Shown in pieces: positions 8,712 through 48,961 of a stretch of DNA of 64,000 bases. Under the pieces are notes generated by a model that saw only the letters and a program-made list of their open reading frames with translations, ran no database searches and was not told where the DNA came from. A program made the position numbers and the translations under genes. Numbering within the stretch: position 1 is the first letter of the stretch; each line of letters begins with the position of its first letter. Origin of the DNA: Geodermatophilaceae bacterium NBWT11 (GTDB lineage: Bacteria > Actinomycetota > Actinomycetes > Mycobacteriales > Geodermatophilaceae); the NCBI GenBank assembly GCA_014218215.1, contig CP043652.1, positions 2,666,001 through 2,730,000 of the forward strand, written 5' to 3'.

Positions 8712-9893
8712 GTGTCCTTCGTCGACCTCGCGCTCATCGCGCTGGCCCTGCTGTTCGCGCTGTCGGGGTTCCGGCAGGGGCTGATCGTCTCGGCGGCGTC
8801 CTTCGTCGGGTTCTTCGGCGGGGCCGTGGCCGGTGCGCAGCTGTCGGGTCCCGTGGCCGACCAGGTCTCCGGGTCCAGCCTGGCCCGGGTGTTCGTGGCG
8901 CTGGTCGTCGTCCTCGCCGGGGCCCTGCTGGGCCAGCTGGTGTTCGGCGCGGTCGGGCGGGCCATCCGCAGGAAGGTCACCTGGGAACCGGCCAAGGTCG
9001 TCGACTCGGTGGCCGGGGCGTTCATCTCGGCCGTCGCCGTGCTGCTGGTCGCCTGGATGGTGGCCACCCCGCTGGCCAACTCGGCGTTCCCGGCGGTGGC
9101 CAGCCAGGTGCGCCAGTCGACGCTGGTGCAGGCCGTCGACCAGGGTGTGCCCGACGGTGTCCGGTCCCTCTACGACTCCCTGCGCGAGGCGATCGACCGC
9201 CGCGGCCTGCCCGACGTGCTCGACCCGCTCACCCCCACCCAGGTGCGCGACGTGCCCGCCCCCGACCAGGGCCTGCTCGCCAGCCCGGTGGTCACCCAGG
9301 TCCGCGGCTCGGTCGTCCAGATCAGCGGCATCGCCTCCTCCTGCTCCCGGCAGATCGATGGCTCGGGCTTCGTCTACGCCGACGAGCGGGTGATGACCAA
9401 CGCCCACGTGCTGGCCGGCGTCACCTCGCCCACGGTCAACGCCGAGGGCGAGAGCTACGACGCGGTCCCGGTCTTCGTCGACGAGGAGACCGACGTCGCC
9501 GTGCTGGCCGTGCCCGGCCTGCCGCAGGTGCCGTTGACCTTCGCCGCGCAGCCGGCCGACTCCGGCGCCGACGCGATCATCATGGGCTACCCCGGTGGCG
9601 GTGGCCTCTACGTCGGCCCCGCCCGGGTGCGCGACCGCGGCGACATCAGCGGCCCGGACTTCCGCGCCTCGCAGACCGTCGTCCGCGACGTCTACGCGCT
9701 CTTCGGCCAGGTGCGCGCCGGCAACTCCGGTGGCCCGCTGCTGGCCACCGACGGCACCGTGCTGGGCGTCGTCTTCGCCTCGGCCATCGACGACCCGGAC
9801 ACCGGCTACGCCCTCACCGGCGCCCAGGTCGCCGAGGCCGCCGCCGCGGGCAGCACCGCGCGCACCCCCGTCGACACCGGCCCCTGCGAGTGA
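8712..9893 (+). CDS. marP: MarP-type membrane serine protease with CvpA-like N-terminus
   Basis: 393 residues. Four membrane helices in the first about 150 residues form a colicin-V-production-like domain; a chymotrypsin-fold protease follows on the outer side. The triad is visible as His in TNAHVLAG, Asp in EETDVAVLAV and Ser in RAGNSGGPLL. Cys in ASSCSRQ and in the terminal GPCE match the two cysteines that form the structural disulfide in M. tuberculosis MarP (Rv3671c). MarP is needed there for acid and oxidative stress survival and cleaves RipA. GTG start 10 bases after the cupredoxin stop. Confidence 0.93.
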   Translation: MSFVDLALIALALLFALSGFRQGLIVSAASFVGFFGGAVAGAQLSGPVADQVSGSSLARVFVALVVVLAGALLGQLVFGAVGRAIRRKVTWEPAKVVDSVAGAFISAVAVLLVAWMVATPLANSAFPAVASQVRQSTLVQAVDQGVPDGVRSLYDSLREAIDRRGLPDVLDPLTPTQVRDVPAPDQGLLASPVVTQVRGSVVQISGIASSCSRQIDGSGFVYADERVMTNAHVLAGVTSPTVNAEGESYDAVPVFVDEETDVAVLAVPGLPQVPLTFAAQPADSGADAIIMGYPGGGGLYVGPARVRDRGDISGPDFRASQTVVRDVYALFGQVRAGNSGGPLLATDGTVLGVVFASAIDDPDTGYALTGAQVAEAAAAGSTARTPVDTGPCE

Positions 9894-9910
9894 CGGACCC
9901 CTCGCCCCGG

Positions 9911-9995
9911 CGTTGATCAGCTCCGACGACCACCGTGCGTCCTCCTCCACCGACACCGGCGGCTGAGGACGCACGCTGGTGGAGGAGGACGGGCG
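9911..9995 (+). repeat. Palindromic repeat family 1, copy A
   Basis: An imperfect palindrome of about 85 bases with the inner stem GTGCGTCCTC / GAGGACGCAC (9935-9944 and 9965-9974). Bases 9915-9952 are identical to 39829-39866 and, inverted, to 11204-11241. It lies directly between the marP stop and the stop of the converging AbiEi-like gene. It could act as a bidirectional terminator. Confidence 0.9.
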
Positions 9996-9997
9996 GG

Positions 9998-11047
9998 TCA
10001 GGCTGCGGCCGAGCTGGACGAGCCCGGGTCGGCGGTCCACGGCCGCGCTCGGGGCTCCCGGCGCAGTCCGCCTCGCCACTGCTCGATGCGCACGCCGGGC
10101 GGGAGCACCAGTGGCTGGGTCAGGAGGCCGCGCAGTCGGTCGACCTTGGGAGCGAGGGCTCGTCCCAGGTCCGGCTGGGCGAAGCGGACGCCGACCAGGC
10201 CGAGGTCCACGAGCGCGTCGTGCCGGCGCTTCTCCTCCCAGGCGACGTCCGCTGCTGACCGGCCCCGCCACGGGTCGGTCCACTTCACCCGGCCGTCGCA
10301 CTCGCCGAACGCGGGCGTGCCCTCCCACCACATGTCCAGGACCGCCAGCAGCCGGTCGTGCTGGAGGACGGCGGCCTGCAGGACCGGCTCGGGCAGGCCG
10401 GCCGCGACCAGGTCGAGCCGCGTCCTGGTCTCCAACGGGGAGTGGGCGCCGAGGCGGGCCAGCCCGACCGCGCCAGCGGAGTTGCCCACCCCGACCCAGT
10501 GTGTCTGCTCGAGGACGCCGTCCACCAGGTCCTGCAGCGTGATCCGACCGTCGGCGAGGGCGTCGTCCAGGGCGGTCACGGTGTCGACGACGTCCCACTC
10601 GCGGCCCAGGTCGAGCAGGGTGCGTCGGACGCTGGTGAGTCGGAGTGGGTCGCGGGTCTCGACTTCCCCGGCTGGCAGGCGCGCGGCGAGCACGCGGTAG
10701 CCGCGGCCGAGTCGGAAGCGCTCGGGATCGGTCAGGGTGACCCGGGTGTCGGCGTCCCGGGGGAGCACGAGGTCGTGCAGGCGACCGGCTGTCGCGTGGC
10801 TCAGGACGGTGCTCGGACGGCCCAGTCGGGCCAGCACGGCGGCAGCAGCCAGCCAGTGCGGGCTCCCGGCGTCCGTGTGCTGACGCCGCACGTGATCGGT
10901 CGTGTAGACGCCGAAGCGCACGCCGTGCCACGCGCCCGACCGGACGAGGGCGGCGATGGAGTGGCGGGTGTGCCCGACGGCCACGGCGTCGGCGGTGGTG
11001 AACACGCCTCCGCGTCGGAGCATCGCGGCCAGCAGCTGGGGGTGCAT
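9998..11047 (-). CDS. AbiEi-antitoxin-like winged-helix protein with C-terminal DUF559/Vsr-like nuclease fold
   Basis: 349 residues. The N-terminus (LLAAMLRRGGVFTTADAVAVGHTRHSIAALVRSGAW) matches the winged-helix start common to AbiEi-type antitoxin proteins. The C-terminal third resembles DUF559, a PD-(D/E)XK-like nuclease fold, with LLAVLDMWWEGTPAFGECDG and WEEKRRHDALVDLGLVGVRF. No partner toxin (AbiEii) is adjacent. It interrupts the conserved marP-ephE order and is bracketed by inverted copies of a palindromic repeat, so it is an accessory insertion. The exact catalytic residues are not certain from reading, and the function is unknown. Confidence 0.75.
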   Translation of the reverse strand: MHPQLLAAMLRRGGVFTTADAVAVGHTRHSIAALVRSGAWHGVRFGVYTTDHVRRQHTDAGSPHWLAAAAVLARLGRPSTVLSHATAGRLHDLVLPRDADTRVTLTDPERFRLGRGYRVLAARLPAGEVETRDPLRLTSVRRTLLDLGREWDVVDTVTALDDALADGRITLQDLVDGVLEQTHWVGVGNSAGAVGLARLGAHSPLETRTRLDLVAAGLPEPVLQAAVLQHDRLLAVLDMWWEGTPAFGECDGRVKWTDPWRGRSAADVAWEEKRRHDALVDLGLVGVRFAQPDLGRALAPKVDRLRGLLTQPLVLPPGVRIEQWRGGLRREPRARPWTADPGSSSSAAA

Positions 11048-11160
11048 GCCGGCAGCGTGGCGTGCCGCGTTGCCCCGTGGAGGCTCACGTCGAGGTCTGG
11101 GGACGGACCCCTCGGATGTGGACGGCGATCAGCCGATCCGGGCCGGAGTGGGGTAGCCGC

Positions 11161-11252
11161 GCGTCGTCCTCAGCCACCAGCGTGCATCCTCCGCCGGCGA
11201 CGTCGGTGGAGGAGGACGCACGGTGGTCGTCGGAGCTGATCGAAGCCCGGGG
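11161..11252 (-). repeat. Palindromic repeat family 1, copy B (inverted relative to copy A)
   Basis: Reverse-complement copy of the repeat at 9911-9995; 38 bases (11204-11241) are identical to it. It lies in the 215-base gap between the start of the AbiEi-like gene and the end of the ephE-like gene. Together with copy A it forms an inverted pair around a single gene, like the ends of a small element. The rest of the gap (11048-11160) shows nothing recognisable. Confidence 0.9.
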
Positions 11253-11262
11253 GGAGGGCGGG

Positions 11263-12204
11263 TCAGCGGGCCCAGGCGGCTATGGCGGCGCTGACCTCGT
11301 CGGGGGTCTCCTCGTGGGGGAAGTGGCCGATGCCGGGGAGCTCGCGCCACTCGTAGGCGCCGGCGACGTAGCGGCCGGACCCGTGGGCGGTGGCGGGCAG
11401 GATGCAGCGGTCGAGGGCGCCGTGCAGCTGCAGGGTGGGGGCGGTGACCGGGGCGGCCATCCGGCGGGCGTAGCGCAGACCGTCCGGACGCAGCTGGGAG
11501 CGGAACGCCCAGCGGTGGAACTCCATCGCGCCGTAGGCGGCCTGCGGGATCCGGGCGGCCTGACGGTAGCGCTCCACGGCCTCGGCGAAGTCGGTGGTGT
11601 GCACCCAGTCGGGGCCGGCCCAGCGGCGCAGCAGCTCGGCGACCGGGTCGTCGTCGTCCCGGGTCAGGCGGCGCTCGGGCAGCCGGGGAAGCTGGTAGCG
11701 CAGGGCGTACCGCGAGGCCCGGCGCTGGGCGCCCGAGGTCATCGCCGAGCGGAGCTCGCGGGGGTGCGCGGAGGACACGACGACCAGCCCGCGGACCGTG
11801 CGGGGGTGCAGCGCGGCCATCGTCCAGCCCAGCAGCCCGCCCCAGTCGTGCCCGACGACGACCGCGTCGGACTCACCCAGCGCCCGGACGACGGCGGCCA
11901 CGTCGGCGGACAGCGTGGGCAGGTCGTAGCCACGCGGGGGCTTGTCGCTGCCGCCGTAGCCGCGCAGGTCGACCGCGACGGCCCGGAACCCGGCGTCGGC
12001 CAGGGCCACCAGCTGGTGCCTCCAGGCCCACCAGAACTGCGGGTACCCGTGCAGCAGCAGGACCAGTGGGCCCTCTCCGGCCTCGGCGGCGTGCAACCTG
12101 ACCCCGTTGGCGGAGATGTCGCGGTGCCGCCAGGGCCCGGGCAGGAGCACGCTGGTCGCGTCGGGGGCGCCGTCCGGGACCCGCGGGGCCCCGGCGTCGG
12201 TCAC
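11263..12204 (-). CDS. ephE: Alpha/beta hydrolase, epoxide hydrolase EphE-like
   Basis: 313 residues of an alpha/beta hydrolase fold. LLLHGYPQFWWAWRHQ holds the oxyanion HG dipeptide, GHDWGGLLGW the nucleophile elbow with Asp as nucleophile (as in epoxide hydrolases and dehalogenases), and GIGHFPHEETPDEV the catalytic His. A cap domain lies between about residues 145 and 220. Position beside the holin-like gene and acs matches Rv3670 (EphE). The substrate is not known. GTG start 4 bases after the upstream stop. Confidence 0.88.
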   Translation of the reverse strand: MTDAGAPRVPDGAPDATSVLLPGPWRHRDISANGVRLHAAEAGEGPLVLLLHGYPQFWWAWRHQLVALADAGFRAVAVDLRGYGGSDKPPRGYDLPTLSADVAAVVRALGESDAVVVGHDWGGLLGWTMAALHPRTVRGLVVVSSAHPRELRSAMTSGAQRRASRYALRYQLPRLPERRLTRDDDDPVAELLRRWAGPDWVHTTDFAEAVERYRQAARIPQAAYGAMEFHRWAFRSQLRPDGLRYARRMAAPVTAPTLQLHGALDRCILPATAHGSGRYVAGAYEWRELPGIGHFPHEETPDEVSAAIAAWAR

Positions 12205-22125: not shown

Positions 22126-22460
22126 CGGAGCACGACCGCCACGGTGACCCGGCCGTGCACCGTGCGGGGGACGACGAGCTCGCCCCCGCCGACCAGCGCG
22201 GCCGCCTCGGCGACGCTCCCGGTGCCGACGGCGGCCCGCACCCGTGCCGAGGAGGTGGGGGTGGCGACGCCGTCCAGCTCGGTCGCGGCGTGCGCGGACA
22301 GCGCCCAGCCGCGCAGCGCGACGGCGTCCCGCAGCCCCGGCTCGGCCGCCCGCCGGTCGAGCGTGGCCACCAGGTCGACCGGCCCGCCGACGGCGTCGAC
22401 GGCGGCCAGCACCTCCTGGGCGCTCACCCCGCGGCGCGCCCCGATCCCGACGACCCTCAC
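22122..22460 (-). CDS. cobE: CobE / CbiG C-terminal-domain protein
   Basis: 112 residues, only the CbiG C-terminal domain: [22 protein letters not shown] at the start and [18 protein letters not shown] at the end. In aerobic-type pathways the stand-alone domain is called CobE, an assisting protein of unclear catalysis. The CbiG N-terminal (cobalt-precorrin-5A hydrolase) half is absent here, which fits the oxygen-dependent route. GTG start overlaps the cbiO stop by 4 bases and its own stop overlaps cobC. Confidence 0.85.
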
Positions 22461-23362
22461 CGCCCCGCACCCCCCGACGAAGGAGGCTCTGCACCCCCGG
22501 ACGAGCTGATGAGGGGGTGTAGAGCTTCCTTCGTCAGGGGGCCCAGGGCGGCGAGGAGGGCGGCGGTGTCGCGGGGGAGGACGCCCTCGGGCAGCAGGCC
22601 CAGCTCGCGGAGGCGGGCACCGACGGTGAGGGTCCAGGGGCGGTCGAGGCGGGCGCGGGCGAGCAGGTCGTCGTCCCCGAGCACGACCTCGGGGCGGCCC
22701 TGCACGACCCGGCCGTCGACGACGACGGCGACCTCGTCGGCCCAGCCCAGCGCGAGGTCGACGTCGTGGGTGCTCATCACCACCGTGGAGCCGGACCCCT
22801 GCAGCCGGGAGAGCGCGGCCAGCGCCTCGGTGACCGCGGAGGGGTCCAGACCGGCGGTGGGCTCGTCGAGCAGCAGCACGCAGGGCCGCATCGCGACCGC
22901 GCCGGCGATGGCGACCCGCTTGCGCTCGCCGAAGGACAGCTGGTGGGTGGGCCGGGCGGCCAGGCCGGTGACGGCGAGCAGCTCCAGGGCCTCGGCGACC
23001 CGGGCGCGCACCTCGTCGTCGGTGAGCCCCAGGTTGAGCGGGCCGAAGGACACGTCCTGGGCGACCGAGGCGCTGAACAGCTGGTCGTCGGGGTCCTGCA
23101 GCACGAGCTGGACCTCCTGGCGGTGCGCCTTGAGCCCGGCGCGGCTGTACCGCACGGGCGCCCCGTCGACGACGACCTGCCCGGAGGTGGGTTCCAGCGC
23201 CCCGGACAGGCAGCGCAGCAGCGTGGTCTTGCCCGATCCGTTGGCGCCCAGCAGGGCGAGCCGGCGGCCCTCGGGGATCGTCAGCGAGGCGCCGTCGAGC
23301 ACCCGTCGGCCCCGGGTGTAGCCGACGACCAGGTCGAGGGCGGCGAGCTGCTGGTGGCTCAC
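22457..23362 (-). CDS. cbiO: Cobalt ECF transporter ATP-binding subunit
   Basis: 301 residues. Walker A in [15 protein letters not shown]-loop [14 protein letters not shown], signature [14 protein letters not shown], Walker [13 protein letters not shown] and switch His in STHDVDL. Energises cobalt uptake with CbiQ, CbiN and CbiM. The protein is about 25-30 residues longer than typical CbiO; the extra tail ([13 protein letters not shown] and beyond) is encoded by a long palindrome at 22476-22535, so the reading frame has run into a repeat. GTG start overlaps the cbiQ stop. Confidence 0.94.
22476..22535. repeat. Long palindrome inside the 3' end of cbiO
   Basis: The 23-base arms 22476-22498 and 22513-22535 match at 21 positions (GACGAAGGA ... 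CACCCCC) around a 14-base loop. It is inside the last 30 codons of cbiO, just before cobE. The structure could attenuate transcription between the transporter and the enzyme genes. Confidence 0.85.
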
Positions 23363-29132: not shown

Positions 29133-29279
29133 TCCTCTCCCCGGGTGTCCGCGCCCGGAGATAGCAGGAGGCGACGGCTGGAGTTCCTGGCTCACCCCGG
29201 GGGGCTGACAGTGGCGGGACCGCGCCGGAGTCGCACCGGCTTCCTCCACTGCCGTCGCAGTTCGAAGGCCATCAGACCA
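29133..29279 (-). ncRNA. Adenosylcobalamin riboswitch with translational platform
   Basis: On the minus strand, the core at 29171-29258 is closed by a perfect 8-base P1 (GCGACGGC / GCCGTCGC). Inside are the conserved CCGGTGCGACTCCGGC, GGTCCCGCCACTGT and the B12 box GAGCCAGGAACTC. Bases up to 29279 may add an upstream stem (GGTCTGATGGCC). Downstream, CTCCGGG pairs with CCCGGGGAG, partly covering the ribosome site that ends near 29133, so control of translation is likely. It should switch off the chelatase-to-cobA operon when adenosylcobalamin is plentiful. Confidence 0.93.
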
Positions 29280-29312
29280 CGCGCCCCCCTCCGGGCGACA
29301 GGCCCGCACGAC

Positions 29313-39654: not shown

Positions 39655-39813
39655 ATGACCTCGGGTGGAGTCCTCGCGCTGCTGTTCCTGCTCGGCTGTG
39701 GCTGGCTGCTGCTGGCCACCGTCCGGGCCGTCGTCCGCGGTGGCCTCGGCCCATCCGACCCGCCGGCCAGCCACCCCCGCGTCGACCCGGCCGGCTTCCT
39801 CGCCTCGCGCTGA
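39655..39813 (+). CDS. Small single-span membrane protein
   Basis: 52 residues: one membrane helix (VLALLFLLGCGWLLLATVRAVV) and a Pro/Arg tail. GGTGGG lies a few bases before the ATG. Divergent from the MocR regulator, which often controls a divergent membrane-protein gene (YczE in others), though this protein is far smaller than YczE. No family recognised. Confidence 0.5.
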   Translation: MTSGGVLALLFLLGCGWLLLATVRAVVRGGLGPSDPPASHPRVDPAGFLASR

Positions 39814-39822
39814 CCGGGCCCG

Positions 39823-39914
39823 GGCGTCGATCAGCTCCGACGACCACCGTGCGTCCTCCTCCACCGGCGTCGGTGGAGGAGGACGCACTCTGGTCGTCCC
39901 AGCTGATCAACGCC
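39823..39914. repeat. Palindromic repeat family 1, copy C (most complete)
   Basis: A 92-base palindrome. Paired blocks are GGCGT/ACGCC, GATCAGCT/AGCTGATC, GACGACCA/TGGTCGTC and the long GTGCGTCCTCCTCCACC with its complement, interrupted by short mismatched steps. Bases 39829-39866 are identical to copies A and B. It lies between the small membrane gene and cobD and covers the cobD stop codon. Confidence 0.92.
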
Positions 39915-40848
39915 GGGGGCGGGCCAGCAGGCGGGTGAGGACGGCGAGGGCGGCGGACGCCGTCCACACCGCGCGGGAGAGGGCGACCGCGCGGGCGACG
40001 TCGGCCCGGACCGGGGGAGCTCCGTCGCCCATCGTGGGGCGCTCCTCCACCCGGGTGCCGTAGACGTTGCGGCCGCCCAGCCGGATGCCCAGCGCGCCGG
40101 CGGCGGCGGCCTCGCAGCGGCCGGAGTTCGGGCTGGGGTGCGCCGCGCCGTCCCGCTGCCAGATCCGCAGCGCCTCACCTGCCGAGCCGCCGACCAGCGG
40201 CGCGACGGCGACGGTGAGTGCCGCGGTGAGCCTGGCGGGCAGCCAGTTGGCGACGTCGTCCGCCCGGGCCGATGCCCAGCCGAACCGGAGGTACCGGTCG
40301 GACCGGTAGCCGACCATCGCGTCCAGGGTGTTCACCGAGCGGTAGGCGACCAGCCCCGGCAGCCCGGCGACCGCACCCCACACCAGCGGGGCGACCGCGG
40401 CGTCGGAGGTGTTCTCCGCGACCGACTCCACCGTGGCGCGCACCAGCTCGGCCTCGCCCAGGGACGACGGGTCGCGGCCGGCGAGGGAGGACAGGTGCGC
40501 CCGCGCGGCGGGCAGGTCGTCGGCGGTCAGGTGCCCGGCCATCTTCGTCCCGGCCCGGCCCAGCGAGGTGCCGCCGAGCACCGACCAGGTGACGAGGGCG
40601 GTCAGCGCCGCGCGGGTGAGCGGCCGCGAGCGGGTGGACCGGTCGGCCGCCGTCCCCAGCGCGGTGACCGTGCCGACGCACACCGCCCAGTACGCGGCAC
40701 CGGTCGCCCGGTCGTCGCGCCAGACGCGTCGTTCCAGCGCTGCGGCGGCCTGGCCGAAGCCGGCGACCGGGTGCCGGCGGCGCGGGTCGCCGAGCGCGGC
40801 GTCGGCCAGCGAGCCCAGGGCGAGGCCGGCGGCGGTCGGGAGGTCCAC
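39907..40848 (-). CDS. cobD: Adenosylcobinamide-phosphate synthase (CobD/CbiB)
   Basis: 313 residues, integral membrane enzyme. Hallmarks are GLALGSLADAALGDPRRRHPVAGFG, ATVESVAENTSDAAVAPLVWGAVAGLPGLVAYRSVNTLDAMVGYRSDRYLRFGWASARADDVANW and PNSGRCEAAAAGALGI. Joins aminopropanol phosphate to adenosylcobyric acid. The GTG at 40848 gives the usual short N-terminus; a TTG at 40866 would add six residues. Its stop lies in palindrome copy C. Confidence 0.94.
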   Translation of the reverse strand: MDLPTAAGLALGSLADAALGDPRRRHPVAGFGQAAAALERRVWRDDRATGAAYWAVCVGTVTALGTAADRSTRSRPLTRAALTALVTWSVLGGTSLGRAGTKMAGHLTADDLPAARAHLSSLAGRDPSSLGEAELVRATVESVAENTSDAAVAPLVWGAVAGLPGLVAYRSVNTLDAMVGYRSDRYLRFGWASARADDVANWLPARLTAALTVAVAPLVGGSAGEALRIWQRDGAAHPSPNSGRCEAAAAGALGIRLGGRNVYGTRVEERPTMGDGAPPVRADVARAVALSRAVWTASAALAVLTRLLARPRR

Positions 40849-48902: not shown

Positions 48903-48961
48903 CCGAGTGCACGCTCGGTCTGGTTCCCGGGCCTCTCGAACCAGACGGGGCGTGCACTCGG
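48903..48961. repeat. Palindromic repeat family 4, copy R, after cobIJ
   Basis: 24-base arms 48903-48926 (starting CCGAGTGCACGCTCGGTC) and 48938-48961 match at 22 positions around an 11-base loop. Starts 4 bases after the cobIJ stop, so it probably ends the cobG-H-IJ transcript. Related to copy L at 47836. Confidence 0.85.

Follow-up and report, generated by a model that had tools for sequence, protein, structure and literature searches.

AbiEi/DUF559-type genes paired with palindromic repeats in Actinomycetota suggest a REP-like system built on an unrelated enzyme

Introduction

Why does a single nuclease-like gene stand between two mutually inverted copies of a palindromic repeat, at a site where most related genomes lack such a cassette? 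The question is raised by a stretch of 64,000 nucleotides from Geodermatophilaceae bacterium NBWT11 (genome G000; GenBank assembly GCA_014218215.1, contig CP043652.1, positions 2,666,001 to 2,730,000), referred to here as the window, in which a gene of the AbiEi/DUF559 type lies between a marP-like and an ephE-like gene. A first reading made without database searches (here, the sequence-only reading) had compared this arrangement to that of repetitive extragenic palindromic (REP) sequences and REP-associated tyrosine transposases (RAYTs). According to PMC8266576 and PMC3733652, REP palindromes lie between genes and border one dedicated, mostly single-copy gene, and different REP types can occur within an organism. 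No description linking DUF559 or AbiEi to palindromic repeats was found in the open-licence literature in PMC, and a term search of the available part of PMC12306157 returned no mention of DUF559, AbiEi, RAYT, or nuclease.

Here, we report that many genes of this little-studied type are flanked by palindromes of their own, copies of which are often scattered through the same genomes. A REP/RAYT-like pairing of gene and palindromes, involving an unrelated enzyme, is well supported, and it suggests a new kind of jumping-DNA system.

Results

Matching flanks bracket the homologous genes

For every locus, blastn was used to align the DNA on one side of the gene with that on the other. The gene had been called in 38 of the 13-kb loci, and in 36 of these the flanks matched at an expectation value (E) of ≤1e-6, while none of 72 other genes in the same loci had matching flanks (1/72 at 1e-4); these loci come from at most 20 genomes and about ten ortholog groups and are hence non-independent. 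The sequence-only reading had allowed that such repeats might be no commoner beside this gene type than beside other genes, and the counts show otherwise. The set initially comprised 40 loci, from which L113 and L114 were excluded for lack of a gene call; tested by hand, L114 gave a weak match (9e-6), and L113 was scored as giving none (2.7e-5). The two negatives among the 38 were L126 and L129, the latter having a miscalled open reading frame (ORF) and palindromes visible on both sides. Mismatched flank pairs among the 13-kb loci matched in 30 of 300 cases, and because most of the 20 shown came from one ortholog site, the gene control was relied upon for this set. A larger count (41/53) from the comparison that included the gene control was not used, as 15 of its loci had an assumed strand. 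A pure terminator reading of the repeats was rejected, since of the 72 other genes in the same loci none has matching repeats on both sides at 1e-6 and only one at 1e-4.

All 19 tested loci from named genomes also had matching flanks, 15 of them being already in the first set. At greater distance, from other genera of the family up to the phylum, 25 of 40 usable loci matched at 1e-5, compared with 1 of 400 mismatched flank pairs. This set had held 27 positives before L053 and L218 were dropped as short-contig artefacts. The window's genome itself has 11 places above the DUF559 Pfam cutoff, the eleventh being L114; matching flanks were found at 6 of the 10 tested, and in 0 of 90 mismatched pairs. 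Matches to the family profile occur in 87 of 296 genomes sampled from the phylum (E of 1e-12). One of the four unmatched DUF559 loci, L303 (G000:C1:466402), reads like a true Vsr mismatch endonuclease and is a useful negative for the boundary of the family.

Scattered palindromes are mostly of the local gene's own type

The element family of the window is found at no fewer than 25 places in the 4.59-Mb, single-contig genome, two of them at the gene. Scoring covered 40 of the 165 initial candidates, and the count may therefore be a lower bound. Among the 25 is a copy of 71% identity that seems closer to the palindrome of the paralogue at site B. The copy that had been noticed about 29 kb from the gene was located among them (Table 1).

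The palindrome sequence differs between nuclease genes, and homologues have their own. For 17 genes drawn from 17 genomes, the nearest in the same genus and the most distant in other classes of the phylum, the elements on both sides were searched against the whole set of genomes. Among the matches listed, to which all counts from this search refer, every match lay on the genome's own segment with 15 exceptions: 14 matches in G010 lay on the segment of G023, which represents one ortholog site shared by the two genera, and one match in G019 lay on that of G021. Eight of the 17 genomes had five or more own places (at least 23 in G181, at least 15 in G023, at least 14 in G021, at least 12 in G040, at least 11 each in G005 and G019, at least 8 in G138, and at least 5 in G015), and for G010, at least 12 places fell on the segment of G023. 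When the window's genome was searched with the elements of five more of its genes, 6 places were obtained for site B, 3 for site E, 4 for the DUF559-like gene L112, and 2 for a second gene of that kind, L114; the fifth, site F, is taken up in the Discussion. The closest relative of the window gene within its own genome is 56% identical and has palindromes of its own. Across ten genomes, palindrome distance tracks nuclease distance (Mantel r of 0.72, p of 0.0001) and not marP distance (r of 0.20, p of 0.13). As a separate observation, G040 carries two cognate palindromes 1.1 kb apart (G040:C1:81838-83064) with no nuclease match listed there, perhaps a second or decayed cassette.

Taken together, the bracketing and the cognate scattered copies support the REP/RAYT-like arrangement proposed at the outset. 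They also bear on whether another transposase, for instance an HUH enzyme encoded elsewhere in the genome, moves the palindromes and treats the nuclease genes as passengers or favored landing places. HUH enzymes are associated with the REPs described elsewhere (PMC3733652 and PMC8266576), but different nuclease genes here have different palindromes on both sides, and the listed scattered copies follow their own gene's type apart from the 15 exceptions above. As one shared outside transposase would not predict a distinct palindrome for each nuclease lineage, we regard this alternative as unlikely.

Elements at the gene and elsewhere differ in form

The gene occupies the interval between the marP-like gene (encoding a Colicin_V and Trypsin_2 protein and ending at 9893) and the ephE-like gene (encoding an alpha/beta hydrolase, stop at 11263). 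From the outside inwards, each flanking element consists of an outer arm X (GATCAGCTCCGACGAC), a palindromic core of 40 nt, and Y, a partial repeat of the second arm of the core. The two elements are mutually inverted with X outermost, so that X-core forms the terminal inverted repeats of the cassette. What had been described as two palindromes of about 90 bases facing each other around the gene are indeed inverted copies on both sides, each being an X-core-Y composite rather than a full 90-nt palindrome. The arms (9891-9991 versus 11165-11265) are 84% complementary over 101 nt, and the identical run in the outer arms, earlier counted as 38 bases, is 40 bases long. Both elements fold moderately (z of -2.5 and -1.9). 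The GATCAG arm is also found in the cassettes of orthologous groups A and B and in 15 solo copies; Y is present in other group A cassettes and is less regular in group B.

Table 1. Features of the cassette and of the solo element in the window
Feature	Position	Strand	Remark
AbiEi/Vsr-like nuclease gene	9998..11047	-	349 amino acids
Outer arm X, element on the 3' side of the gene	9915..9930	+	Read from sequence
Palindromic core, 3'-side element	9935..9974	+	
Y, 3'-side element	9978..9992	+	Partial direct repeat of a core arm, facing the gene; read from sequence
Y, 5'-side element	11165..11178	-	Read from sequence
Palindromic core, 5'-side element	11182..11221	-	
Outer arm X, 5'-side element	11226..11241	-	
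marP stop to ephE stop	9891..11265	.	Whole cassette inside
Solo 80-bp X-core-X copy	39829..39908	.	Between two gene ends; match span 39809-39928

In the solo copy of the window, X arms stand on both sides of the core, and the whole forms one long, near-perfect hairpin (-59.4 kcal/mol, z of -10.8). The genome holds 15 such X-core-X copies, each exactly 80 bp from GATCAG to CTGATC, and seven further copies of the X-core-Y form seen at the gene. In other species, 12 of 17 copies examined were X-core-X elements of 80 bp, the remaining 5 showing no X-core-X frame. Within the X arms, two fixed positions are unpaired in 14 of the 15 copies; around them, the five pairs inward are kept in 15/15, and the two pairs outward in 13/15 and 9/15. 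We read this conserved mismatch as giving the element polarity. An origin of the solo copies by simple deletion of a cassette was rejected on the same grounds: the same X stands at both cassette ends, and a fusion product should therefore pair throughout. Of 23 sites, 22 are no more than about 30 bp from the stop of a called gene, the genes being called approximately, by codon GC, and the ORF rule having missed the neighboring genes at L001.

At the gathering threshold, Rfam reported no known RNA family at the elements of the window; its sole match there was a cobalamin riboswitch (29159-29288, minus strand, 43.9 bits). Two further hairpins were observed in the window. One, long and spanning 22455-22556, is a 77-79% copy of the palindrome that brackets another DUF559 gene of the same genome (L298) and represents a second gene/palindrome family in the window. 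The other, a near-perfect hairpin of 59 nt at 48903-48961, had no match at an E of 1e-4 among the fetched loci searched.

The protein is predicted to join an AbiEi-like half to a Vsr-like nuclease half

The window protein is predicted to consist of an AbiEi-like N-terminal half and a nuclease half closest to the homing endonuclease I-Bth0305I and to Vsr, with the predicted nuclease half matching the catalytic-domain fold of Vsr-like (EDxHD) homing endonucleases. PADLOC AbiEi models match the gene with an E of 6e-23. Among 36 family members, Pfam reported AbiEi_4 in 29, AbiEi_1 in 2, and Phage_attach in 1 at an E of ≤0.01, and no Y1/HUH (RAYT-type) transposase domain at that threshold. An HUH fold was not noticed in the PDB match list of the window protein either, an observation that excludes nothing. 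PF04480 (DUF559) was not reported for the window protein at an E of ≤1, while two homologues from the same genome score above its cutoff; NCBIfam gave no family at an E of 0.1 for the four members tested. Residues D238, D251, E272, and K273 are invariant and E206 and K255 nearly so, which makes them candidates for the EDxHD catalytic residues (compare the active site of 3r3p). The gene is under purifying selection (ratio of nonsynonymous to synonymous substitution rates, dN/dS, of <1), and no AbiEii toxin gene adjoins it, its neighbors being the marP-like and ephE-like genes. Plasmid or phage carriage was rejected, as neither the 72,556 plasmid records nor the 50,697 phage records searched by tblastn gave a match at an E of 1e-10.

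Given the AbiEi-like N-terminal half, the protein might instead be a transcription regulator, an AbiEi-type autorepressor for which the palindromes serve as operators and the scattered copies as a regulon or as bidirectional terminators. Their position just behind genes (22/23) would suit this idea; against it, the copies stand at 3' ends and not at promoters, they are present or absent as units between related species (see below), X-core occurs at both ends of the gene rather than on the promoter side alone, and the residues of the nuclease half are conserved with a dN/dS of <1. A purely regulatory role is accordingly, in our view, quite improbable.

Elements and cassettes come and go between relatives

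Genomes G001 to G008 are taken as Klenkia brasiliensis, K. taihuensis, K. marina, K. soli, Modestobacter sp. Leaf380, K. terrae, Klenkia sp. PcliD-1-E, and a Klenkia metagenome-assembled genome, respectively. Sixteen family genomes have the marP-ephE locus (site A); four of them (G000, G004, G006, and G007) carry the cassette there, and the other 12 do not. The gene does, as first proposed, interrupt the marP-ephE neighborhood, and the possibility raised alongside, that all relatives carry it there, is not the case. In G008, whose marP protein is 98% identical, the site is empty, and the marP and ephE stops lie a few bases apart. At site B, G000 and G008 carry different cassettes: identity is 82-100% in the flanks (60-bp windows) and 43-78% in the cassettes, with the palindromes marking the transition; immediately beyond the palindrome on one side, identity is back at 98-100%.

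Quick trees, in which several forks are open, pair G000 with G008 and G007 with G001 and G002 for marP, and G000 with G005 and G007 with G003 and G006 for the site-B nuclease; the site-B clade also takes in the nucleases of sites A and C.

Seven scattered sites of G000 were sought across the genus. At five of them (L003, L004, L007, L012, and L017), the element is missing from a relative in which both flanks are present; L006 in G008, which lies at the end of a contig, and L002 in several relatives, where the flanks are hundreds of bases apart, were left out of this count. At L012, G008 has another hairpin. G006 carries the element between the same flanks at L017, G007 carries it behind the same left flank at L002, and G002 has at L004 an element resembling that of its own site-B gene. 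The cbiB site of the window shows a similar pattern, with elements of the local site-B type in both G001 and G002; in G001, a second element of different core sequence stands in tandem with it at this intergenic site (L162, cbiB 3' end). Several of the empty sites consist of a C run followed by a G run behind a stop codon; others differ, such as L007 in G003. In G006, about 1.2 kb of extra DNA was recorded between flanks where G000 has a solo element (L246, G006:C4:1721582-1723523).

The different cassettes at site B in sister genomes, along with the PADLOC match, might be taken to mean that a defense or toxin-antitoxin gene is swapped by ordinary homologous recombination and that the palindromes are hot spots bounding it by chance. 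However, no AbiEii toxin partner adjoins the gene, the near-identity at site B begins directly outside the palindrome on one side, and the scattered cognate copies would be left unexplained. Of the alternatives weighed, we hold this one to be the least probable. None of the three predicts distinct cognate palindromes both around and beyond different nuclease genes.

Discussion

In the favored reading, the gene and the elements on its two sides make up a small cassette that is mobile. The encoded protein would be a sequence-specific nuclease, with an AbiEi-type half for DNA binding and a Vsr/I-Bth0305I-like half for cleavage. Its recognition target would be the X-core element of its own cassette, probably in the form of an extruded hairpin, and it would cut or nick DNA immediately behind genes, at terminator-like sites rich in GC. 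The break would then be mended by the host, whose repair would copy in either the element, as 80-bp X-core-X or as X-core-Y, or, at a homologous locus, the whole cassette. On this view, the palindromes would be non-autonomous and would depend on a gene present in single copy, much as REPs depend on RAYTs, except that a homing-type nuclease takes the place of the HUH transposase. The data show the pairing of gene and palindromes and their patchy occurrence among relatives; hairpin recognition, cutting, and spread by repair are what we infer, and likewise that the protein mobilizes the palindromes. Homing-like cutting with copy-in repair is the best mechanism for these data, with a probability of roughly 0.58. 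The broader proposal is of a class of mobile DNA found throughout the Actinomycetota: through structure-guided cutting followed by copy-in repair, AbiEi/DUF559 nucleases would both propagate and preserve the palindromes that belong to them and would exchange their cassettes; we advance it tentatively, at just short of even odds.

Several observations weigh against this reading. Some homologues lack matching flanks (L126 among the 38 loci, 15 of the 40 distant loci, and 4 of the 10 DUF559 loci). Among the matches listed, the other 8 of the 17 genomes in the cross-search had only 1 or 2 places, and those of G222 were its two gene flanks only. In the window's genome, site F has no scattered copies beyond its 2 flanks, and the site-E element is rare, occurring in 8 of 41 genomes with 1 to 8 matches each. 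The co-divergence of palindrome and nuclease (r of 0.72) could arise from linkage alone. G008 is a metagenome-assembled genome, such that its empty site and different cassette could partly be assembly artefacts, and it has 2 clear and 2 short partial matches to the site-A element yet no site-A gene. The synonymous divergence (dS) of the site-A gene (0.70-0.73) is about twice that of marP (0.35-0.39), which complicates dating of the insertion. Finally, inspection by eye of aligned empty and filled sites, whose flanks are GC-rich and poorly aligned, revealed no target-site duplication, and no systematic search was made.

The pairing of scattered palindromes with a second, unrelated enzyme throughout a phylum would mean that the REP way of life arose more than once; it would provide a testable role for many actinobacterial proteins annotated only as AbiEi or DUF559, and a compact nuclease with its likely target encoded alongside. 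If the broader proposal is true, this would be an independently evolved enzymatic solution to that way of life, with chemistry unlike that of known transposases.

The system shares features with four known ones. The predicted catalytic-domain fold is that of Vsr-like (EDxHD) homing endonucleases such as I-Bth0305I, whereas the gene here lies outside any intron or intein, is fused to an AbiEi half, and is bracketed by palindromes with scattered copies. An AbiEi-type fold is shared with the AbiEi antitoxins of type IV toxin-antitoxin systems and with Rv2827c; unlike these, the protein here has an extra nuclease domain, no adjoining toxin partner, and repeats on both sides of its gene. As in miniature inverted-repeat transposable elements and insertion sequences, short elements have inverted ends, and a gene cassette carries the same ends outward, but Pfam found no transposase domain in the 36 members, the closest gene relative in the same genome is only 56% identical, and no target duplication was seen.

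The nearest parallel is the REP/RAYT system (REPtron), including REP doublets forming hairpins (REPINs): scattered palindromes accompany a flanked, dedicated gene, which in the window's genome is single-copy and has its element family at 25 places or more. The differences lie in the enzyme, an AbiEi and Vsr-like nuclease with no Y1 domain in 36 members; in the 80-bp elements, whose outer arms pair; and in the different cassettes found at one fixed site in sister genomes. The GTAG tag of REPs is absent from the consensus of the 15 copies of the window's family, and relative to CGTC-tagged REPs, CGTCC lies inside the paired core and CGTC in an arm rather than in an unpaired end tag. With neither an HUH domain nor a GTAG tag, the system is not a REPtron; it works like one.
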